In this document: positions 1-14,476 of the stretch, in pieces
Layout: each line of letters starts with the position of its first letter
How positions within the stretch are numbered: position 1 is the stretch's first letter
Virus record (IMG/VR): IMGVR_UViG_3300024518_002027
Span: 1-22,902 of that record
Origin: a virus
Direction: 5' to 3' (one strand)
Length of the DNA stretch: 22,902 nt
Notes under the pieces: generated by a model
What the model was told of the DNA's origin: nothing
Database searches by the model: none
Seen by the model: only the letters and a program-made list of their open reading frames with translations
Translations under genes and position numbers: made by a program

Positions 1-2685
1 AGCATGACTAAGATCAAATTTTCGATCTAATATAGCATATTCACCTATACCTTGTTGTCCTAAATATATAATTTGTTCTTCTATTGTTTCTAAAGCAAGT
101 CTTCCGGTATAATCTTTAAAATATACCCCTAATTGTCCTCCAAAACTTCTACCCCAAAGCTTAGTAATATCTGGAGAACCTTTAAAATCTTTTAATATTT
201 TCATAGTATTTGGGGCACCTGCTACAAATCTTGTAACAGTTCCCTCTACTATACCATTTGCTACAGAAGACCCTAGTATTTGAAGATCACTTATATCAGC
301 AAATGCCATAGTTTTATTTATATCCGCCATAGCATTAGCATAATCAAATTCACTTATTTGTCCATTCTCAAAAGCCTGCGTTAATAAACGCCCTTGGTCT
401 TCAGCCATTTTATAAAGCTCTTGTTGAATATTTAGTTGTCTATATTTTTCTGTTCCTGAAGTAACCCCAAAAGTACTAGCAATTGCCCACTTGGTATAGG
501 GATCAGACCATTGTAATCCTTTACCTAAAGCACCTGTTCCGATAGCCATAATTACATTAGGGCCTTGCTGTCCTAATGTTCTTAAAACATATTCGCCACT
601 TAATTCAGGAGCAACCATAGTTTTATAATACTCATTTCTTTGATTCATTAACTTTTGCTCATTTTGAGCCCAGTCCGAGCCTAGCAATGTTGGTACACTA
701 AGCGCAATACTTTTAGTTGCATCATAAAAATCTTTAACAAATAATGCCCCTAAATCATATTCTTTAAAAGACAAATCAATCAGCGAATGATCTCTATCTT
801 TACTATAGTCTTTTAATGCTTTTACCTCTTCTAATACTTGTCGTATATAATTTTGTTTTTCTTCTTGTAATGTTGATGTAAGCGCTTGAAGTTTATAAAA
901 TTCTGCATTTTGAGTAATAAAATTTTCTTCTTCTGAAGATGTTAATTTTCTATCTTTAGGCCTAATTAATTCTGCTGTAATTTGTCCATTAGTATCTATA
1001 TAGCTTAAAGTAGATCCTTTTGGTAATTCATTATATATTTTATTTAATTGATAATCTATCAAATTTGAAATATTATTAGTAGCCTGTCTAATAGTCTTCA
1101 TTTTTTTATCTATACTATTTTCTAATAAATCCGCAGGTATTCCTTCCCAGCGCGCTGCCATATCAAACAATGTTTTATCATCACCTAAATCTGCTATAAT
1201 ATTCTCGAATAAAGGTTTTGTAGCTTCATCTAATAATTTTTCTTCAGCATTCTTTAAACCTGAGTTTATGTGTTGAGATAACCACCCTCCTGTTAATAAT
1301 TTTTTTACTAATTCCGGCGGTAGAGCAGGTATAGGATCTTGGTCAAAACCTATGATATTAAATCTATCAATAACCTCAGGGGATTCTCCGTTTAAATAAG
1401 CTTCAAATATATTTTTATATTGAGTTTCACTTATAGCATTCTTCAGTTTACTAAACCCAGGACCAGCACCCCCTATTTTAGTATTTAATAAATAATCTTT
1501 TAATTCAGATAAATTAGTTTTAAGAAGTTCTATTTCTTCTGTAGTAAATAAAGGCTCTTGTGTAATTGGATCTTTTTGTAATCCAGCAGCAATAGGAATT
1601 TGAATATTAAAATCTTCATTTAGATAAGCTGCATAAGTTTTTGTAGGATTGTTTTTTATAATAGCCGTTTGTTCCTTTAAAGTTCTTTCTTTATTCTGCC
1701 TTACTTGGCTATATACATCAAAAGCGTCTTTCATTAAAATATCCTCTTCTTCTGGTTTTAACCTCTTTCTTAAATAACTTTGTATATTGCTTTCTAAATT
1801 TTGATCTTTAAAGGCAAGAGTTCTATCATCTTTTGTATCATCTTCACTATAACCTTGGTCTGTAGCTAAAACATCACCTGTTTCTGTATCAGTTAATATT
1901 TGACCATCTTCTGTATAGGTAATATTCATACCCATTTTATTTAACTGTTGGTTTACATAATCAAGACCTATTCTTTTATTTTCGAAGTCCCTATACAATG
2001 CCATGCTGATTCCACTTAACCGTTCTTGGCCATTTAATTGGGCATCATAGTTTTTTAATTTTTCCAACACTTCTTTAGCCTCTGCTTCCCCTGCGTCTGT
2101 ATTAGGTTGTAAATCTAGTATTACAACTTCTTTTCCTAAATGAATACGAACAGCATCACCAGTCTCTGCTTTTTCAATATTAATACTTTTATATTTTTGT
2201 GACAAAAAATCTACAACTGATTCCTCCCCTTTATATATAATAGTTTCAGGAACTTCAAGATTCATTTCGGAATCGGCACTATATAGTTTATTTTTTTCTG
2301 TAGCGACTCTATCTTTAGCTGCTTTAATTCTTCCGGCTAATGCAAATATTGAAGACGGTAAATTCTTAGGGTTACTAATTCTTTCTAATTCCTTTTCAGC
2401 ATCTCTTAGGGGCTGATATATAGGACTTTCTACATCTGTTGTTAAGTCTTCTAAAGTACCAGTATCTAAATTAAAATCTACAATACTTTCATCAACATCA
2501 GTATCAATACTCTTTACAGGATCTATTTTAAGCTCTGGTATTTCATTTGGCCCGCGTGAATCAGGAATCATTTGCAAATTATATTTAGCAATATATTCAT
2601 CGGTACCAATGTTTTCACTAGCCGCGGCTTCTTCTAATCCTAATTGATCAAAGACTTCGTCTGTTTCAACATTTTTATATAACAT
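1..2685 (-). CDS. Large internal virion (ejection/cargo) protein, 3' end outside window
   Basis: The frame is open from an ATG at 2685 to the window edge without a stop, giving at least 895 residues. The protein looks soluble, charged and mostly helical, rich in K, E, N and Q. I recognise no catalytic motif in the visible part. A more hydrophobic, glycine-containing stretch at about residues 705-740 includes W726-SDPYTKWAIASTFG and could touch a membrane. It is the third of three consecutive helical genes after the muzzle genes. In crAss-like and T7-like podoviruses this position holds the large proteins stored in the head or core and ejected with the DNA, so I infer that role. The start follows an A/T-only leader like its neighbours and lies 5 bases past the stop of the upstream gene. 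The C-terminal part, where lytic or other enzyme domains may occur, cannot be seen. The gene itself is certain; its function is an inference from size and position. Confidence 0.7.
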   Translation of the reverse strand, partial: MLYKNVETDEVFDQLGLEEAAASENIGTDEYIAKYNLQMIPDSRGPNEIPELKIDPVKSIDTDVDESIVDFNLDTGTLEDLTTDVESPIYQPLRDAEKELERISNPKNLPSSIFALAGRIKAAKDRVATEKNKLYSADSEMNLEVPETIIYKGEESVVDFLSQKYKSINIEKAETGDAVRIHLGKEVVILDLQPNTDAGEAEAKEVLEKLKNYDAQLNGQERLSGISMALYRDFENKRIGLDYVNQQLNKMGMNITYTEDGQILTDTETGDVLATDQGYSEDDTKDDRTLAFKDQNLESNIQSYLRKRLKPEEEDILMKDAFDVYSQVRQNKERTLKEQTAIIKNNPTKTYAAYLNEDFNIQIPIAAGLQKDPITQEPLFTTEEIELLKTNLSELKDYLLNTKIGGAGPGFSKLKNAISETQYKNIFEAYLNGESPEVIDRFNIIGFDQDPIPALPPELVKKLLTGGWLSQHINSGLKNAEEKLLDEATKPLFENIIADLGDDKTLFDMAARWEGIPADLLENSIDKKMKTIRQATNNISNLIDYQLNKIYNELPKGSTLSYIDTNGQITAELIRPKDRKLTSSEEENFITQNAEFYKLQALTSTLQEEKQNYIRQVLEEVKALKDYSKDRDHSLIDLSFKEYDLGALFVKDFYDATKSIALSVPTLLGSDWAQNEQKLMNQRNEYYKTMVAPELSGEYVLRTLGQQGPNVIMAIGTGALGKGLQWSDPYTKWAIASTFGVTSGTEKYRQLNIQQELYKMAEDQGRLLTQAFENGQISEFDYANAMADINKTMAFADISDLQILGSSVANGIVEGTVTRFVAGAPNTMKILKDFKGSPDITKLWGRSFGGQLGVYFKDYTGRLALETIEEQIIYLGQQGIGEYAILDRKFDLSHA

Positions 2686-5132: not shown

Positions 5133-5543
5133 TTATATTTGTTTTGCTATTTCATATGATGGTTTTGAATCCACCGTATATCCCAATTGTTTATGGGAAT
5201 TAATTAAGTTTTTATTTCTACCAATGCTTAAGATTATTTTACACCCGCTATTACGAGCAACATGCTCCATACCAGTTATTAATAATTCTATAGCATCTTT
5301 TTTATCTTTATTTTTATAGTTTTTATCAGAGACAATCCATTCCATCCAACCCACCTTGGAGTTAGTAGTGTATAAAAATCCCGCTACTATTGGAGTCTTG
5401 TTTTTTTCAACGATAAAACCTCCTGTGCCATTATTAGGCAACATGTCTTTTGTAGGGTGTTGTTTCCATTCTGAATACATTCCCCACCATTTTACTAACA
5501 AATCCCAATCCGATTCGGTTAGTTTTCTAATATTTAATTCCAT
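5133..5543 (-). CDS. GNAT-family N-acetyltransferase-like protein
   Basis: A 136-residue protein with the N-terminus MELNIRKLTESDWDLLVKWW, the usual first strand and helix of a GNAT fold. The central sheet is visible as GGFIVEKNKTPIVAGFLY (41-58) and GWMEWIVSD (65-73). A helix (DAIELLITGMEHVARNSG) and a strand (KIILSIG) follow, then N110 with INSHKQLGYTVDSKPSYE, the normal end of such enzymes. The acetyl-CoA loop is degenerate: YKNKDKKDA stands where a Q/R-x-x-G-x-G/A motif is expected. The substrate is unknown. The gene is embedded between muzzle and ejection-protein genes with gaps of 2 and 10 bases, so it is expressed late with virion parts. It may modify a virion or host protein, or be a catalytically weak structural relative. 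The fold is fairly certain; the activity is not. Confidence 0.78.
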   Translation of the reverse strand: MELNIRKLTESDWDLLVKWWGMYSEWKQHPTKDMLPNNGTGGFIVEKNKTPIVAGFLYTTNSKVGWMEWIVSDKNYKNKDKKDAIELLITGMEHVARNSGCKIILSIGRNKNLINSHKQLGYTVDSKPSYEIAKQI

Positions 5544-5553
5544 ATAATTTTAT

Positions 5554-6834
5554 TTAATAAGATGATTCTGCAAATTCTGTAGAAACTGCGAATAATTCAT
5601 TTGTTCCTGATGTTGCTGTATTTGTAGCGCTAAAAGTTGCTGTTGCAAAAAACCCTTTAACACCAGATATTGAGCTACCATATATAACTTCACCCGCCGC
5701 TATTGCAGTAGTATTTATAATATTAGCAAAATATTTATCTTCTTTTGGTTTAAAAGTATTTTTTAAATAATTATTTTCAAAATCAGTTAAGCTAGTTGGC
5801 AATGTAAATACATCTACAGGGTTAGCGGTATCTTGGTTGGTGGTTAAAGAAGCTAAGCCCCAGTTATTTCCACCTTCATAGTTTATAGTTTTAAAAGATT
5901 TAACTAGTGAAGGATTTGTATTAAAAATAGTAGTTACACTGGAAGCATTATCTGTATTATAAAAATAAGCTCTATTAACATTGTTAGAATAATGTTGATA
6001 TATGTCTCCTTCAAATATACTATAAAAATTATTAGCTAAGCTAAATATAAAATCAGGAGTATAACTAAAAAAGCTAGGCCACCCAAGTACACTTTCATCA
6101 AATGTTAATGTTCGTGAATCTGCCGCTGTATTAACACCTGGCTGAGTGGAAAGTGTATAAACTTTGTTATGAATATCCCATCCACCAGCAATTCTACCTC
6201 CATTCAATGAAGATAGAGAATCTCTAAAATAATCATACATACCATAATTAGATATTTCTGTAAGACCATCTTGGGATAGTCTCATTATAGACCCTTTGGT
6301 TGCATCAGAAAAATATTTTCTATATCCATATACAGCAAATGATTCTGGATTGGTACCGATACCAAATTCCCCAGCATAAGGCTGAACTTGTCCTATTACT
6401 AAATTTGTACTTGTTGTTATAGGTTGACCTTCAGCTGAATAAATAGCATCTTTATCTATTAATGCTCTATTAACTTTTCGCTCTTGGAATATAACTAAAT
6501 TTGTATCTTCGGCATAAAGTTTTTGTATAGTACCTTTAGCAGGGTCTACAGTTCTAGTTATATCGTTGGCTATAGAAAATTGATTAGTTTCATTAACACC
6601 AGTTCTTGAATTAAGTATACCAGAATAAATTATACTATTGCCTAAATATTGTTGTCCAGGTAAATCTGCAACTATATAAGCACGCGGAGCAATACCTGCA
6701 AAAGGTTTGTTAAAATCTCCTTTTATACGAGACTCTTCTACATACCAGTTATAAGCAGCAGCAGCAGCTGATACTAAATTGACTTTCTTTAGAATGTATG
6801 TATTAAAATATTGTATTTGTATAGTCGCTGCCAT
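5554..6834 (-). CDS. C-terminal muzzle / tail stabilization protein encoded as a separate gene
   Basis: A complete 426-residue gene. It contains WYVEESRIKGDFN (about 30-42), SGILNSRTGVNETNQFS, KLYAEDTNLVIFQERKVNRA, LIDKDAIYSAEGQP, NPESFAVYGYRKYFSD, RLSQDGLTEISNYGMYDYFR and GGWDIHNKVYTLS. As I know the family, these blocks form the C-terminal part of the large muzzle (stabilization) protein that closes the tail tip in crAss-like and related marine podoviruses. Here they are a separate gene 28 bases after the stop of the 1688-residue muzzle gene. The gene has its own strong leader (5' AATTATAAATT before ATG), identical to that of the capsid gene, so it is not a sequencing frameshift. The last 60 residues are Thr/Ala/Ser-rich and variable. 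The protein probably assembles on the partner gene's product at the tail. The family call is good; the split is inferred from remembered homologs. Confidence 0.75.
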   Translation of the reverse strand: MAATIQIQYFNTYILKKVNLVSAAAAAYNWYVEESRIKGDFNKPFAGIAPRAYIVADLPGQQYLGNSIIYSGILNSRTGVNETNQFSIANDITRTVDPAKGTIQKLYAEDTNLVIFQERKVNRALIDKDAIYSAEGQPITTSTNLVIGQVQPYAGEFGIGTNPESFAVYGYRKYFSDATKGSIMRLSQDGLTEISNYGMYDYFRDSLSSLNGGRIAGGWDIHNKVYTLSTQPGVNTAADSRTLTFDESVLGWPSFFSYTPDFIFSLANNFYSIFEGDIYQHYSNNVNRAYFYNTDNASSVTTIFNTNPSLVKSFKTINYEGGNNWGLASLTTNQDTANPVDVFTLPTSLTDFENNYLKNTFKPKEDKYFANIINTTAIAAGEVIYGSSISGVKGFFATATFSATNTATSGTNELFAVSTEFAESSY

Positions 6835-6862: not shown

Positions 6863-9800
6863 TTACGCCCCAGGCCAAGGCCCGCTAAATGGATACGATG
6901 TTCCAATTACTGGCGGCGTTGTAGGATTTATTTGTTGTACATTATTATAAGCTACCGGAGGGGTATTCCCAGGAGAATATTTTAATGTAAGTGTTTGTCC
7001 TTCACCACATTCTATGGGGTCTACTGGTAAACTTAAATTAACCATTACACATTTACTCCAATCATAATCTACTCCATCAAGATTCCCTTTATCTCCAGGT
7101 GTTACACCAGCATTTATTTGTGCTGGAGGAGGGTTAAATGCCTCTAATTTAGCAAGTTCTACATAAGCGCCAGCCCAAGGATTTGTAGCATCATAAACAT
7201 TAACATTAGGAAAAGATCCTGATAACCAACCTACGGCTCCAGACCCATTTGCCGGAGAATTAGTAGCGCCAGTATTAGTACCACCCGCTGTCCAACTTAA
7301 TGTAGTAGAACCTGTAGTTGCTGTAGAATTAGTATATATCCATATATGTTGAGCTGTACTTTTCCAATTTTGTACTTCACCAACAAAATGAGGTTTTACA
7401 GGTACACCAGGGTTTTGACAACCTGGCCCCATTTGAGTTAAACTAGTGGATTGTTCAAATCCAGCAGCAGCACTATAATTAGGATAATAAGAATAAACTA
7501 CACTACCATCATATCTTATATCTGTAGGGGTAAATATTATTTCTAAATCCTTATATGCTTCAGAGCCATTAGTATCATAAAGTCTTAAATTTAAAGTATG
7601 CTGAACTGGATTCCAATTATAAGTACTTCTCCTTCGCAATTCTACTCCCCAATAATTATCTGGAGGAACATTAGCACAATCAAATCCAGCAGGTATAACT
7701 CCGTCGTTAGCTGTATGAAAATAATAATCAATATCACTTGCTGTCGCAGCATTACCTGTGGCGCCACCGCTTATTGTTGCCCCACCATCTACGTCTGCAA
7801 TATTAATAGAAAAAATAACCCATTTTAAATTACTTGTAGACTCACAATCATTACAACTCCCATTCCATCCTTTAACAAACCCTGCATTAGTACCGAGCCC
7901 ATTAAAAGTTGAATGAGGTCTTAAAATTACTGTATCAGTAACGTCTACATTAGGGGACAGCCCTAATTCTACTAAAGGATCTTTATTCCTTAATTCAGTT
8001 GAACTATTTCCAATAGTATGAATAGCTACTGTGCTATCAGCCTGTGTAAATGTTATTTCAAACCAATAATGTTGTGTCCAAGGATAAGTATCAGGGGTAC
8101 AAGATTGAGGATTATCTAATCTTAAATAATATCCACCTTGATTTGCCCCAACAGTAACTTGCACTAAACTAAAATCTGCACTTCTATCTGAGCCTGTATT
8201 TATAGATCCATTTTGATTATATTCTTTTACTGCTAAAGTTGCAGTAGTAGTCAAATCATTTCCTCCTGGGGTTGTTGGGAAAAATACACTTGATATTTGT
8301 GTGCCTGCACAATCATCTTCTTCTATTGAAATATCTGTATCAGTTATTCCATTTATTTTAGTACCTTCAGTTACAACAGCAGTATTTAAATCTGATATTA
8401 ATCCTGAGGTAGACGATTCCCAGAATAATTCCAATTGACTTATTGTAGGACTAGTTTCATATACTGATAATCCCATAGCCCTTGGATATTCACTGCCTGC
8501 AACTGGAGCCACAAAAGTGCCTTCTACCAACCCTATTGTATTTTGTGTATCTATTTTCGCCATTACTGGTCTTTGATCTACATCAAATACAGCATATGGA
8601 TTTACATTTCCAGCTTGACCATCATAATCCATTTCAGGGAATAAATTAGTAGAAGTACCAAGTAATGAAACACTGTCTGGATTAGTAGTAGGAATATATT
8701 GGGTATTATATGAATTTGCTCGATCATTATTTTCTACTCTTCCAAACCAAGTAACCCCACTATTATATTGAACATCTTGTGCGGCTACATCTGATAAATC
8801 TCGGGGTACTTTATTAATATTGTCATGAACTAAAACACAAAAAGCTACTTCATCTAATTCAAGTGGGGGTGGGAGACTTGATGGCGGTGAAGAAGGATAT
8901 CCATTTATTATGCCTGGTAAATATACATTATAATATTCTTGTTCTTGTTGTTTTATTACTACTCTATAAGAATACCACCCTAATTGATTTAAATCATATG
9001 TAGAATTATTTACATTTTCATCCGTGAAAGGTTCGGTTCTTACAGATGGATTTGAAGTAACAGTAGTATCTCCTTGCCACATATAGTTATCTGCAATTTC
9101 TTTATTAGTATAAAAATAATACTTATTAACAACACCAATCTGAGATAACGATTGTATTTTTACATAGTCAGTATATTTTCCTCTTAAAAATTTTCCTGTA
9201 TTAAATATACCCGATGCAACAAATCCCATATCGGATTCAACTAAAGTTACTACTACATCAGTAACACCACCTATAAGGGTTTGACTTATCGTTATAGTAT
9301 CACCTATAGCAAATCCTTTCCCAGGAGTCACTACAGTTATTACACTTACTTTACCAGCACTAACAGTTACATTAATTACTAAGTCTACTCCATCACCACT
9401 AGTTGTCCATGCCGCAGCATTGTAAGTAGTAGCGGGGGTTGCAGTTGTAGTTTGAGTAGTTATAGAGGGTTTTAAATCTGTAACACCAATAGCAGTGCCA
9501 AGAACAGAAGCTGCTGGAATATAATCTATTTCATATCTATATTGTGCATTATATAATACCCTACCTCTTAATTTATATCCTGTAGTAGCAGGTGCCCCAG
9601 AAGTAAAAGTTACTATTATTCCATCTGCACCACTAGCAGTTACACCATATGTGGTGGCATCTACTAAACTCCATCCTGTTCCCGTATTTAACCAAAGTGT
9701 AAATAGTGTAGTAGCATCTAAATCGGACTGTGAGAGATTTGTAAAAGTATAAGCAGCTTGGGCCGCTACAGTAGCAATTTCTTGTGTACTCCAATTTAAA

Positions 9801-11929
9801 AATCCAGGCCAAGGAGATGAATAAGGTTCTTCTACTATATAATTATTAGGATTAGCATATAATCCATCACTTGTAGGGGATGTAATTATACTATCAAATA
9901 TTAAGTTTAATTCTTGCCCATTCCAACTATCTACACTACCTGCAAACGAAATAGGTTTATATGTAGTAAAATAATTAGAACCTTCTATAGGTTGCCCACC
10001 AGCTACTAACACATTATCTTTTGAAGATAAAATTACATCACTTTGTCTTCCCCATTTATCTGCTAATACAATACCTACTTGATAATTTCTATTTTGTTTT
10101 ACAGAATGTTGAGGATATTCTTCTTGAATTTGAACATCTTTATCGGATTTTTCTACATAATAATCTAGACCAATTGGTTCATCATAACTTTGTGTAAAAT
10201 TAGCATACATAACCCGGTTAGCTACAATTTCTTGAGCTAATGCCCTAACTGGTACTTTATCATATACTCTAGTAGTTTCATCTACTGGTAAGGTTTTATA
10301 AGGAAGTATTGATTGATAAGTATATTGATATATAGTAGTATTATTAAGATTAGCTATAAAACTAGCATTTACCGGAACATTTTGTAGTATTTTATAATCT
10401 AAAGCATCTGATTCTTTAAATACTATTTCTATTTCTTTTACTTTATAATCAGTTATAATATCTAATGAAGGAAGCTCAATATTTAATATAATATTATTTA
10501 TACTATTTTGCATAAACTCTACAATAGTAGTTCTAAAAGCATCTTCTTCGTCTTTATTGACAAACTGCCCATCCTGCTGTGGTATAAAACATTCTTGTGT
10601 AAAAGGAGCTATTAATGAATATTCATCATCATCAAATTTAAATCTATAACTAAATCTTACAAATTTATCTTTTAATAATTCTGGATCACCCTGCCATCCT
10701 TTAAAAGTAGCATTTCGCGTTAATCTTATTGATCTGCCTACTCCCATATCAGCAGCAGTAGATCCTCCGTTTGTTAATACCGCTCCAGTAGCATTAACTG
10801 TAGGTAAAGTTAAATAATCATCGCTAGTATCACTAGTCCAAAAAGTAGCAGTATCAACAGCATCTGCACCAATATTACTAAAAATACCTGCAGCGCTTAC
10901 TTCTCCCGCGGGTAATCCATCAAAACCACTTGAATTATTTCCTGGGTTAGTCCATAAATTAATCGATTTTAAGGCTAAAGCTGAATCTACATCCCCACTA
11001 CCACCATTTCCTAAAAGAAGAGCTGTATAATCCGCATCAGTAGCTAAACTATATCCATAAGGAGCTAAGTTCCTTGCATCTTCAACTGCATATTTATTAT
11101 ATAATTTTCCATATGTTACACCATTTGCTAATTCAAAATCATAATAACACCAAGCACCTGTTCCTGCTGCATTAAAATCAGTCCATTGAGATGGGGTAAT
11201 AGCTTGTGATATTTCATCTCCATTTCTGTAACGTGCTACACTTAAGTTTTCTGTAGTCCAATCAATTAAATCAATTCTTACATAAGGCTGATCCTCAGCA
11301 TCGCTCATTGTGGAAGGGCTAATTACACTGCTAGGTAAATCATATTGCACTGCTTGAACTCTTAAATCGATAACAGCTGGTGCTAAAAATGGAGAGTATT
11401 TACATACTGATATACTTTGCTCAGTTTGATAATATCCAGCAGCTCCTGGATTACTTGAAGCAGTTCTAACATTTATTTTTCTCGGTTGATTTAAGTTATC
11501 TGTCCAGAATAATAATTCTTCAATTAAATTTATACCATATATATGTGAAGCAGTAGAAAAATTTAAAAATCTTCCATCGCCCGCAGTAGGCCCACCTACT
11601 AATATAAGATGAGAATTACTACTAGGACTATATCTACATATTTGGCATATAGCTGTAGATGGAATTTCTCCAGCCCCATCCCAATTTGTAAGCATATAAT
11701 AAACATATCCATTAGTTTCATCCACATAAAATCCTATAGCTTCTAACCCTGCGGCATTTTGATATATTCTTTCATTACCTAAAATAGCCTCTAATGCCCC
11801 TACATCACTGCCTTCTGACCTAGATATAGCAATATTATGTGCATCTCTATATTCATTATTAGGGATTAATCTTTCATCAAGATCCTTATTCATTTTGGAT
11901 CTTATGAAACTATTTTTAGATTCTGCCAT
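6863..11929 (-). CDS. Muzzle / tail stabilization protein with inserted FISUMP domain (1688 aa)
   Basis: The N-terminus NSFIRSKMNKDLDERLIPNN followed by EYRDAHNIAISRSEGSDVGA (to about residue 45) is the hallmark I associate with the large stabilization or muzzle proteins of crAss-like and marine podoviruses. Residues 219-405 form an inserted FISUMP-like domain (separate entry). The core resumes at KFVRFSYRFKFDDDEYSLIA (422-441) followed by PFTQECFIPQQDGQF. Residues 725-792 form a small beta module. A proline linker (PSSPPSSLPPP, 1012-1022) precedes DEVAFCVLVHDNINKVPRDL (1026-1044), another core block. About residues 1160-1688 are an extra beta-rich, Thr/Gly/Asn-rich region with scattered cysteines, including SCNDC at 1358-1362. 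The protein should sit at the distal end of the short tail, binding receptors and closing the tube. Its usual C-terminal part is in the next gene. It is the longest gene here, starting 13 bases after the small basic protein gene. Confidence 0.78.
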   Translation of the reverse strand: MAESKNSFIRSKMNKDLDERLIPNNEYRDAHNIAISRSEGSDVGALEAILGNERIYQNAAGLEAIGFYVDETNGYVYYMLTNWDGAGEIPSTAICQICRYSPSSNSHLILVGGPTAGDGRFLNFSTASHIYGINLIEELLFWTDNLNQPRKINVRTASSNPGAAGYYQTEQSISVCKYSPFLAPAVIDLRVQAVQYDLPSSVISPSTMSDAEDQPYVRIDLIDWTTENLSVARYRNGDEISQAITPSQWTDFNAAGTGAWCYYDFELANGVTYGKLYNKYAVEDARNLAPYGYSLATDADYTALLLGNGGSGDVDSALALKSINLWTNPGNNSSGFDGLPAGEVSAAGIFSNIGADAVDTATFWTSDTSDDYLTLPTVNATGAVLTNGGSTAADMGVGRSIRLTRNATFKGWQGDPELLKDKFVRFSYRFKFDDDEYSLIAPFTQECFIPQQDGQFVNKDEEDAFRTTIVEFMQNSINNIILNIELPSLDIITDYKVKEIEIVFKESDALDYKILQNVPVNASFIANLNNTTIYQYTYQSILPYKTLPVDETTRVYDKVPVRALAQEIVANRVMYANFTQSYDEPIGLDYYVEKSDKDVQIQEEYPQHSVKQNRNYQVGIVLADKWGRQSDVILSSKDNVLVAGGQPIEGSNYFTTYKPISFAGSVDSWNGQELNLIFDSIITSPTSDGLYANPNNYIVEEPYSSPWPGFLNWSTQEIATVAAQAAYTFTNLSQSDLDATTLFTLWLNTGTGWSLVDATTYGVTASGADGIIVTFTSGAPATTGYKLRGRVLYNAQYRYEIDYIPAASVLGTAIGVTDLKPSITTQTTTATPATTYNAAAWTTSGDGVDLVINVTVSAGKVSVITVVTPGKGFAIGDTITISQTLIGGVTDVVVTLVESDMGFVASGIFNTGKFLRGKYTDYVKIQSLSQIGVVNKYYFYTNKEIADNYMWQGDTTVTSNPSVRTEPFTDENVNNSTYDLNQLGWYSYRVVIKQQEQEYYNVYLPGIINGYPSSPPSSLPPPLELDEVAFCVLVHDNINKVPRDLSDVAAQDVQYNSGVTWFGRVENNDRANSYNTQYIPTTNPDSVSLLGTSTNLFPEMDYDGQAGNVNPYAVFDVDQRPVMAKIDTQNTIGLVEGTFVAPVAGSEYPRAMGLSVYETSPTISQLELFWESSTSGLISDLNTAVVTEGTKINGITDTDISIEEDDCAGTQISSVFFPTTPGGNDLTTTATLAVKEYNQNGSINTGSDRSADFSLVQVTVGANQGGYYLRLDNPQSCTPDTYPWTQHYWFEITFTQADSTVAIHTIGNSSTELRNKDPLVELGLSPNVDVTDTVILRPHSTFNGLGTNAGFVKGWNGSCNDCESTSNLKWVIFSINIADVDGGATISGGATGNAATASDIDYYFHTANDGVIPAGFDCANVPPDNYWGVELRRRSTYNWNPVQHTLNLRLYDTNGSEAYKDLEIIFTPTDIRYDGSVVYSYYPNYSAAAGFEQSTSLTQMGPGCQNPGVPVKPHFVGEVQNWKSTAQHIWIYTNSTATTGSTTLSWTAGGTNTGATNSPANGSGAVGWLSGSFPNVNVYDATNPWAGAYVELAKLEAFNPPPAQINAGVTPGDKGNLDGVDYDWSKCVMVNLSLPVDPIECGEGQTLTLKYSPGNTPPVAYNNVQQINPTTPPVIGTSYPFSGPWPGA
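10715..11275 (-). other. FISUMP (Fibrobacter succinogenes major paralogous) domain within muzzle protein
   Basis: Residues 219-405 of the muzzle protein match the order of FISUMP landmarks as I know them: W224 with ENL (227-229), YRNGDEI (234-240), W260 with CYYD, YGKLYNKYAVEDARNLAPYG (273-292), ATDADYTAL (296-304), LKS (320-322), GFDGLPAG (335-342), FWTSD (363-367) and a closing RSIRLTR (399-405). FISUMP domains are frequent in surface proteins of Bacteroidota and Fibrobacterota and are thought to have a C-type-lectin-like fold. Their job in a phage tail would most simply be receptor or glycan binding, which is inferred. The flanks look like uninterrupted muzzle core, so this is a domain insertion. 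Confidence 0.82.
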
Positions 11930-12268: not shown

Positions 12269-13531
12269 TTAATGTTTTATCCATTTAGATTTTCCACGCA
12301 TCACTTGTACTATTTCATCAAGTTTTATATTAGATAATCTTATTTTTGCGTTTCTTAATTTAGCGCTTTTTTCTTGTCTTAATCTTCTTACAACATATTC
12401 TGGCTGGTTTATTCTAGTAGAGATAAGAGCATGTAGTATATAAGCATACATTGCATCTTCAGCTAATTTTGGTACCCTACTATCTAAATCATAGGCTAAA
12501 CCATCAGATAAATATTCAAATACTATTAATTTATTTACTAAGTTGCTAGAAAAAGATAATAAACCATCCCTTTCGTTTAAGTTAAACCAACCATTAGCCT
12601 GTGCATATTGTGCATCTTGACCATATAATTGTCCCCAACTAGCACCTAGCCAATTACCTGTGTAATCCCAGTTATATGCCCACAAATCATTTGTAAAATC
12701 ATTTAATACAAATGCACCATTAATCATTTTATCATTAGCAGTATGCCATCTTTCTTGAGTAATAGAGGTTCCTTCAACCTCATTTCCAAAATTATCTTGA
12801 GTAGGTATACCTGCTGAATCTTGAGCCGGAGTATAATAAGGACTAGTAGTTAAATTATTAGTAGGATAAATAATATGTTGAACACCTAAGAAATCTACCC
12901 ATGAACACCTAACGTAATTTACAAAATCTTGAGGTAAAACTAAAGTCAAACTTTCAGGAATAGTTAACTCTGAGGATTTAATTGATTTTAAAGTATCATA
13001 ACTAAATTCTTGCATTGCCCTTTTAGCAAAAAATATAACATCAGTTCTTTTTGCATTAGGTAATAATTTATTTTGACCAACATATCCTACTAAAAAATTA
13101 TTAACTACATCATTTAATTTAATATATTGATATCCGCCATAGTTATCTTCTACTGTTTCACCATAAGCTTTTTCTGCTTCTGTTGCTCCATATTTCCCAC
13201 CACTTAAAATAGTTAATTGAACTACTATATATAATCCATTAGCGGGCTCAGCACCTGGGGGGAATGTTATAATATTATTTGCTACAGAAAAGGCAGTCAA
13301 ATACTCAGTATAAGACCCTTGGGTTCCACTAGTACTAGTATAAATTTTAAAGTTATTTAAAGAATAATCAACATTAGTAGGATCCCAGCTGCCTAAATAC
13401 AAATCTGTATTAAATGTAGTTGTAAAGGTTCTTTGAACACCATCGCCCCTAAATCCTTGAGCACCTGCATAATACTGTTGAGCAGTCTCAGTTATTAATC
13501 CATTGTTTGGTGGTTGTACTACACTAGCCAT
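12269..13531 (-). CDS. Neck / ring (tail tube-like) structural protein, 420 aa
   Basis: The N-terminus has NGLITETAQQYYAGAQGFRG, then a small beta module (about 25-108). The core runs YGGYQYIKLNDVVNNFLVGY (131-150), KRTDVIFFAKRAMQEFSYDT (161-180), LKSIKSSELTIPESLTLVLP and QDFVNYVRCSWVDFLGVQH. The C-terminal helical part has KLAEDAMYAYILHALISTR and ends in GKSKWIKH. I recognise this order from ring or neck proteins of crAss-like and marine podoviruses, which stack below the portal and continue the DNA channel. The gene starts 6 bases after the stop of the upstream neck gene and has the shared TAAATTATGGC start context. Function is inferred from family pattern and position; which ring it forms is not resolved. 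Confidence 0.72.
   Translation of the reverse strand: MASVVQPPNNGLITETAQQYYAGAQGFRGDGVQRTFTTTFNTDLYLGSWDPTNVDYSLNNFKIYTSTSGTQGSYTEYLTAFSVANNIITFPPGAEPANGLYIVVQLTILSGGKYGATEAEKAYGETVEDNYGGYQYIKLNDVVNNFLVGYVGQNKLLPNAKRTDVIFFAKRAMQEFSYDTLKSIKSSELTIPESLTLVLPQDFVNYVRCSWVDFLGVQHIIYPTNNLTTSPYYTPAQDSAGIPTQDNFGNEVEGTSITQERWHTANDKMINGAFVLNDFTNDLWAYNWDYTGNWLGASWGQLYGQDAQYAQANGWFNLNERDGLLSFSSNLVNKLIVFEYLSDGLAYDLDSRVPKLAEDAMYAYILHALISTRINQPEYVVRRLRQEKSAKLRNAKIRLSNIKLDEIVQVMRGKSKWIKH
13208..13459 (-). other. Inserted beta module in the 420-aa neck protein
   Basis: Residues about 25-108 read as strands with short turns: TFTTTFNTDLYLGSWDP, NNFKIYTSTSG, YTEYLTAFSVANNIITFPPG and LYIVVQL. It lies between the conserved N-terminal segment and the conserved neck core. 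The pattern of a strand pair, NxxITF, then an (A/P)-N-G turn and I/V strand recurs in other structural proteins here. Its exact limits are estimated by eye. Confidence 0.5.
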
Positions 13532-13537
13532 AATTTA

Positions 13538-14476
13538 TTATTGTTTTTCGTTTATTTCGTTAGCAGCTAATTCCTGTCCAGCTGCTTGTACTACTGAAGG
13601 GTCTTTAATAGTTACCCCTGCATATTTTAATATTTCTAATATAACTATAGTTGTTTCAGATATATCTAATTCAAAATCTACAGAAGTGGTACCATCATAT
13701 ACATATTGACCATCGCCCCCAGAAGTAAAATCCCATATTACATCAACTGGTTGTCTTAAATAAGATAAAGTTACTTCTGATGTTATAGCCTGAGGATATA
13801 TTATTATTCTTCTATTCTCATATACATATACCGGGAAAAAGTTACTAGGTTTAGTAATAGTAGACATATTCATTTGAGCTAATTCATTTCTTTGAACTGC
13901 TTGAACTTCTTTATCAGTTTTATAAAACACTGTACCTAATTTATAAAAATCTTGAGGTGTTACATTAATTTGAATATTATTTGCTGCACCTGTAGCAATA
14001 GCCGTAACCAAATTCAAGCTTCCACCTGTAATAGTATAGTCTACAGCTGGTGTTAAAGCAACACCGGCATTAGTAACTTCTACAACACCTGAATTAACTT
14101 GTGCTTGCGTTATTGTTGTTAATGGATATACTAATTGAAGTGAAACACTAGAAAATAATTGAGTTAGTGTTACAGCACCCGAAGTAGATGGGATATCAAA
14201 ATAGTCTTCTCCCGTGGCGGGATTGACATAGGTAGCAGTTCCTGTAGTTTTAAAAATATCTAATTTTTCTTCTACAGTTTTATAACGATCTCCATATTCA
14301 CTTTCGTTTTGAGGTACACGTAATTGTTGATTTAATGTCTCAAAATAGGTTTCAAATATTTCTAATTGAACTTGAGTTGCTATTTTATTAAACTCATAGG
14401 GAGTTAAATAACCTCGTTGTTCTTTATTAAATATCAATAAGACTGTTTTATAAACCTTATCTACGTTTATCGCCAT
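13538..14476 (-). CDS. Head-tail connector / first ring protein, 312 aa
   Basis: The first 55 residues (KVYKTVLLIFNKEQRGYLTP, then YEFNKIATQVQLEIFETYFE) are a conserved helical block that I associate with the adaptor protein docking to the portal in crAss-like and marine podoviruses. The core continues at PQDFYKLGTVFYKTDKEVQA (174-193) and ends the conserved part with FFPVYVYENRRIIIYP. Residues about 97-173 are a Thr/Val/Ala-rich beta module that interrupts FDIP and PQDFYKLG, which would otherwise be adjacent. The C-terminus is helical (ETTIVILEILKYAGVTIKDP). It is the first gene after a hairpin-bearing gap and precedes a second ring gene by 6 bases. The role as connector is inferred; the exact ring position is unknown. 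Confidence 0.72.
   Translation of the reverse strand: MAINVDKVYKTVLLIFNKEQRGYLTPYEFNKIATQVQLEIFETYFETLNQQLRVPQNESEYGDRYKTVEEKLDIFKTTGTATYVNPATGEDYFDIPSTSGAVTLTQLFSSVSLQLVYPLTTITQAQVNSGVVEVTNAGVALTPAVDYTITGGSLNLVTAIATGAANNIQINVTPQDFYKLGTVFYKTDKEVQAVQRNELAQMNMSTITKPSNFFPVYVYENRRIIIYPQAITSEVTLSYLRQPVDVIWDFTSGGDGQYVYDGTTSVDFELDISETTIVILEILKYAGVTIKDPSVVQAAGQELAANEINEKQ
13958..14188 (-). other. Inserted beta module in the 312-aa neck protein
   Basis: Residues about 97-173 interrupt FDIP and PQDFYKLG, which read as one continuous segment when the insert is removed. The insert is Val/Thr/Ala-rich with a repeated strand pattern (GVVEVTNAGVALTP, VDYTITGGSLNLV, NNIQINVT), typical of a small beta domain, perhaps surface exposed. 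Confidence 0.5.

Follow-up and report, generated by a model that had tools for sequence, protein, structure and literature searches.

How does a domain of a family that is common in bacterial surface proteins, and frequent in Bacteroidota, come to lie inside the tail-tip protein of a phage, and what might it do there? The question is raised by a 22,902-base IMG/VR virus record (here called the window, meaning the whole stretch of DNA analysed), which carries on its minus strand a crass-like structural block comprising terminase, portal, major capsid protein, two ring-position genes and muzzle genes. A preliminary description of the window had read a FISUMP domain within the muzzle protein, and had proposed that the phage acquired a host-type domain for use at the tail tip, which would also indicate the host phylum.

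Muzzle genes of the window

The gene that carries the domain (6863..11929, minus strand) encodes a protein of 1688 aa that contains the start of the propeller, the Ig-like domain IG1 with the FISUMP insert, and the IG2/crass region. The ORF matched PHROG 14478 with an E value of 1.7e-50, the best stretch being residues 5-187, and hhalign aligned it to gp44, the muzzle protein of crAss001, with a probability of 95.5. In addition, the AlphaFold2 model of residues 1-560 found its best match in the crAss001 muzzle (7qol, Z 11.3; 7qok, Z 10.9). The preliminary description had called this protein a tail stabilization protein, and these results bear out that identity; what it had missed is that the protein is incomplete, its second part lying in the adjoining ORF (5554..6834, minus strand; 426 aa), which supplies the rest of the propeller and the C-terminal domain. 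This ORF contains crAss_MUZ_C (PF25729, E 1.9e-8), matches positions 954-1240 of PHROG 14478 and is aligned by hhalign to gp44 1035-1308. Since PHROG 14478 and the gp44 alignment are shared between the two ORFs, the muzzle is encoded here by two genes, and the propeller would therefore consist of two chains. The split falls after the region matching IG2 and the crass domain, which in gp44 occupy 318-1021 (PMC10172136). Close relatives in which both genes are readable have the same split, with intergenic gaps of -1 to 41 bases, whereas the muzzle is a single gene in L219, ctfjg026 (L031), phi38:1, elemoA and crAss001. As regards the scaffold, gp44 (PDB 7qok, 7qol, 8ckb) is organised in the same way, having IG1 and domains downstream of it besides the propeller blades at the N-terminus; it differs in forming a single chain, whose loop measures 9 aa at the place where the two-gene muzzle of the window has the FISUMP domain. 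PDB searches by sequence returned nothing relevant, whether the query was the entire protein, the domain or the muzzle alignment A3.

Upstream of the muzzle are two structural genes on the minus strand, 12269..13531 (420 aa; phrog_13977, virion structural protein) and 13538..14476 (312 aa; phrog_14543, virion structural protein), the latter also with a weak SU10_adaptor match below the cutoff. We infer that both encode ring proteins. On the other side, a 136-aa ORF next to the C-terminal muzzle gene (5133-5543) has a weak likeness to GNAT acetyltransferases, below the cutoff (E 0.012), and ctfjg026 carries a gene of similar size, annotated as acetyltransferase, nearby. In one relative (L033:7397-11441) the frame of the N-terminal muzzle gene is broken between 7936 and 7980, possibly by a sequencing error.

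The FISUMP domain and its place in IG1

A profile search found Fib_succ_major (Pfam PF09603) at residues 217-373 of the N-terminal muzzle protein with an E value of 9.5e-22 and a score of 78.6 bits, above the curated cutoff of 33.9. The match stops at position 160 of 187, but aligned relatives carry the domain on to a last strand, GRSIRLTR, so that the terminal GxSVRL strand of the family is present and the domain is full-length. Because the alignment reaches this strand, we set the domain limits to residues 214-405 (10715..11290, minus strand). The preliminary description had placed the domain at residues 219-405, and its coordinates (11275-10715, minus strand) are correct; the FISUMP landmarks it quoted are all there, in the order given, and with a profile match of this significance its assignment to the family holds. 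The NCBIfam model for FISUMP, TIGR02145, scored 39.5 bits (E 9.3e-10) in the window, under its cutoff of 41.65, so the domain is assigned to PF09603 and not to TIGR02145; relatives with the same architecture do exceed that cutoff (L155, 53.0 bits; L172, 73.0 bits).

AlphaFold2 folded the domain on its own (50 sequences) with a pLDDT of 91.3 and a pTM of 0.88. A Foldseek search of this model against the PDB gave no significant match, and the models it resembled in BFVD are phage proteins named for FISUMP (top TMq 0.75). Structural re-alignment to 99 PDB chains gave moderate scores, 7.6 at most, with 8 of the 99 at Z >= 2: the best neighbour was CalU17 (Z 7.6 over 156 residues), followed by EgtB, the DGR variable protein TaqVP and invasin (Z 5.4 each), the others being the Bacteroides fimbrial protein 4eps, NKR-P1B, LYVE-1 and CEL-IV. 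All eight have what we take to be C-type-lectin or related folds, and the model thus supports a C-type-lectin-like fold for the domain, as had been anticipated.

Where does the domain enter the muzzle? We bracketed the insertion-site loop by motifs conserved on either side and found it to be 9 residues long in gp44 (177-185), 15 in phi38:1 (179-193) and 235 in the window (186-420). The published domain map of gp44 gives IG1 as 163-292, between propeller blades 2 and 3 (PMC10172136), which places the insert in IG1. IG1 before the insert (residues 171-187; 11369..11419, minus strand) aligns with the pre-loop segments of gp44 and phi38:1, and IG1 after it (residues about 421-530, the end being approximate; 10340..10669, minus strand) contains the DKFVRFSYRFKFDDDEYSL motif common to the relatives. 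Between these parts and the domain lie two linkers, at residues 189-212 (11294..11365, minus strand) and 412-422 (10664..10696, minus strand), both with pLDDT < 50 in the 1-560 model. To judge from the order of the sequence, the loop would be the one that joins the first two strands of IG1, and the strand labels are putative in the same sense. A first whole-protein scan of 24 loci found FISUMP in L002 and L003 only; its absence from the other 22, and from crAss001 gp44, phi38:1 and elemoA, confirmed that it is an insertion and not a part of the core fold. In the window, a loop of IG1 in the crassviral muzzle protein accommodates a FISUMP domain that folds autonomously.

Distribution and history of the insert

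Scans with FISUMP alignments identified about 50 IMG/VR contigs, some of them nearly identical, that have FISUMP at the IG1 site. To avoid the sampling bias of a FISUMP query, we also sampled contigs by their capsid protein, taking the best 80, of which 39 had a readable slot at this site. FISUMP occupied the slot in 8 of the 39 and lay elsewhere in the muzzle in one (L285); the remaining 30 slots consist of 40-225 aa without FISUMP, holding either a shorter loop or another insert. A Pfam search of the slots of FISUMP-less relatives found no named domain. Some of these slots are large (209-225 aa in L253, L255, L242, L295 and L300), those of L253, L295 and L300 having no named Pfam domain. In the capsid-protein tree FISUMP presence requires at least five changes, and the window falls within a clade of 19, all of which have the domain. 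Moreover, 14 contigs of 40-68 kb had one FISUMP per record, every time in the muzzle. Other muzzle positions were seen in L219 (7980-8534, at the C-terminus) and L285 (11353-12000, residues 1127-1338).

Other modules occur in and around the slot. A 71-aa module is nested inside the FISUMP of L043 (residues 319-389) and of L044, and its relatives occupy the slot in L006, L007 and L008, which lack FISUMP. Modules of this GTGY-GD type are found in further structural proteins as well, and the N-terminal muzzle protein of the window has a small one in its distal part, at residues 830-889 (9263..9442, minus strand; phmmer E 9.8e-4 to the L043 module). L002 and L003 have a different insert, of 70 aa, in the last FISUMP loop, for which (L002 as query) no relatives were detected within the sequence set. 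We tentatively suggest that the IG1 loop might be a general socket for exchangeable, partly nested modules (FISUMP, GTGY-GD, unnamed), the clade changing the way it recognises hosts through exchange of tail-tip cassettes or of entire tail modules, although we hold this with less than even confidence.

The FISUMPs of the slot form one clade (SH-aLRT 98 in a tree of 166 rows; 100/99 in one of 68 rows), separate from a mixed group in which bacterial FISUMPs stand together with others from phages. Because the copies of about 50 contigs make up this single clade, one old acquisition at the IG1 site is likely, with losses, replacements or exchange thereafter. The FISUMPs of L219 and L285 fall in the mixed group, outside the slot clade, which would suggest several independent captures in muzzles; a single clade of all muzzle FISUMPs was compatible with the AU test (p 0.40), and for this reason we put it no more strongly. 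The tree is unrooted and gives no direction of transfer; with the slot copies in a clade of their own, apart from the mixed set, the direct uptake from the host that had been proposed does not follow from it. One contig points to exchange on a larger scale: L192, which has FISUMP, is 96.2% identical to L016/L018, which do not, over 5.2 kb of the head region, but from the ring-protein genes onward this identity drops to 76% and lower, while over 9 kb of the tail region L192 is about 87% identical to L177. This pattern suggests that L192 may have exchanged its whole tail module; an assembly chimera is a possible alternative.

Among isolated phages, the nearest ones infect Cellulophaga, Flavobacterium, Tenacibaculum and Maribacter, and by this kinship a Bacteroidota host is likely. 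The domain itself, which had been read as a pointer to the host phylum, is a weak marker, since Microcystis phage Mel-JY01 carries a FISUMP and others turn up in the genome records of bacteria from several phyla (with titles including Geobacter and Desulfobulbus). That FISUMPs are frequent in the likely host phylum would fit a capture made recently from the host of today, of a domain that might have no function. Three lines of evidence contradict this and point to an old, retained domain: base composition, in that the GC3 of the insert (0.126) is near that of its flanks (0.130 and 0.164); the tree, in which the slot copies form a single clade over about 50 contigs; and the purifying selection described below. 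In the bacterial genomes, a scan with the single window sequence found no FISUMP and one with a FISUMP alignment found 549, the top matches being no more than 37-50% identical. We therefore reject a recent capture as highly improbable. As for an artefact of assembly, metagenomic contigs can be chimeric, and L192 shows how abruptly identity can change at the tail module; the same junctions recur, however, in about 50 contigs from many datasets, and the frame of 1688 codons is intact. This recurrence refutes an artefactual origin, to which we give practically no weight.

Candidate roles at the tail tip

The FISUMP domain evolves faster than its flanks and yet is under purifying selection. Its dN/dS is mostly 0.1-0.4 and mostly above that of the flanking IG and propeller parts, with values below 1 in all regions and all pairs measured. 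Among FISUMP muzzles, mean pairwise identity is lowest in residues 363-398 (0.26), a figure that may partly reflect alignment error; it is 0.61 in blades 1-2 and reaches 0.77 in residues 412-450, after the insert, the most conserved stretch measured. In the comparison of the window with L002, residues 701-1000 and 1301-1688 of the muzzle evolve as fast as FISUMP, which is therefore not the sole candidate contact site.

In crAss001 the muzzle protein is a hexamer at the tail tip, with a proposed role in cell contact (PMC10172136). We consider it fairly probable that FISUMP is a receptor- or glycan-contacting module displayed round the tail tip. If the muzzle of the window is likewise hexameric, and assuming that the loop points outwards, six copies would be held there on flexible linkers; the C-terminal part of the lectin fold, which is variable, would let each copy bind a ligand on the host surface, a glycan or an outer-membrane protein, and would in this way add affinity or specificity at the contact between tail tip and cell, when the muzzle gate opens. 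Against such a role we count that many relatives manage without FISUMP.

The constraint on the domain (dN/dS mostly 0.1-0.4), its retention throughout a large clade and the occupation of the same loop by inserts of unrelated sequence would also suit a structural decoration, in which the insert would bind no host receptor but would stabilise adjacent muzzle subunits, hold them apart, or act as a shield for the muzzle. The lectin-like fold and the peak of variability in the C-terminal segment fit ligand binding better than subunit contacts, and the low-confidence linkers on either side speak against rigid packing, so that we regard a decoration as unlikely, though deserving of some weight. FISUMP/DUF1566 proteins are known targets of diversity-generating retroelements (DGRs) and putative phage adhesins (PMC8143477, PMC4159848), and residues 363-398 are variable, which raises the possibility that a DGR actively mutates the muzzle domain too. 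A search for RVT_1 covered 23 distinct records with a FISUMP muzzle, among them the window and seven records of 59-68 kb; it found none in these records, which may be incomplete, and a DGR was rejected on this account. Moreover, every pair measured gave a dN/dS below 1, residues 363-398 show ordinary synonymous change, and the domain is internal, not at the protein end. We thus deem a DGR very improbable, and prefer the contacting module.

Both FISUMP and C-type-lectin domains are known from phage tails, including crassviral fibres (PMC8143477, PMC4159848, PMC12386605). Bacterial and phage FISUMPs (PF09603/TIGR02145) share a sequence and fold family with the window domain, but most of the other phage FISUMPs that we saw are close to an end of a fibre-like protein or belong to a small protein, whereas this one is internal, within an Ig-like domain of a tail-tip protein. 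The adhesins of the Bacuni phages of Bacteroides uniformis are likewise Fib_succ_major/DUF1566 proteins with a C-type-lectin fold and a link to host tropism (PMC8143477); in their case a DGR diversifies the gene at its 3' end, while no reverse transcriptase was seen in the window clade. In Zeta crAss-like phages the tail fibres terminate in C-type-lectin domains, again on a crassvirus tail, although there the case is a predicted trimeric fibre C-terminus with a DGR and not the muzzle (PMC12386605). The BACON repeats of crAss-like tail proteins are likewise a Bacteroidota-type surface domain, suggested to aid host binding (PMC6949934); unlike the muzzle FISUMP, they are Ig-like and lie in another tail-associated protein. 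Variation in crassviral muzzle length has been reported from insertions in the crass and IG2 region, not in IG1 (PMC10172136). What appears to be new is the placement of FISUMP in the IG1 loop of the muzzle, of which a literature search that took in few subscription journals found no earlier description.

The insert bears on host recognition at the tail tip of crass-like phages. A lectin-fold domain that folds on its own and sits in a known loop offers a direct handle on this problem, being expressible alone, and natural relatives with and without FISUMP provide matched comparisons.
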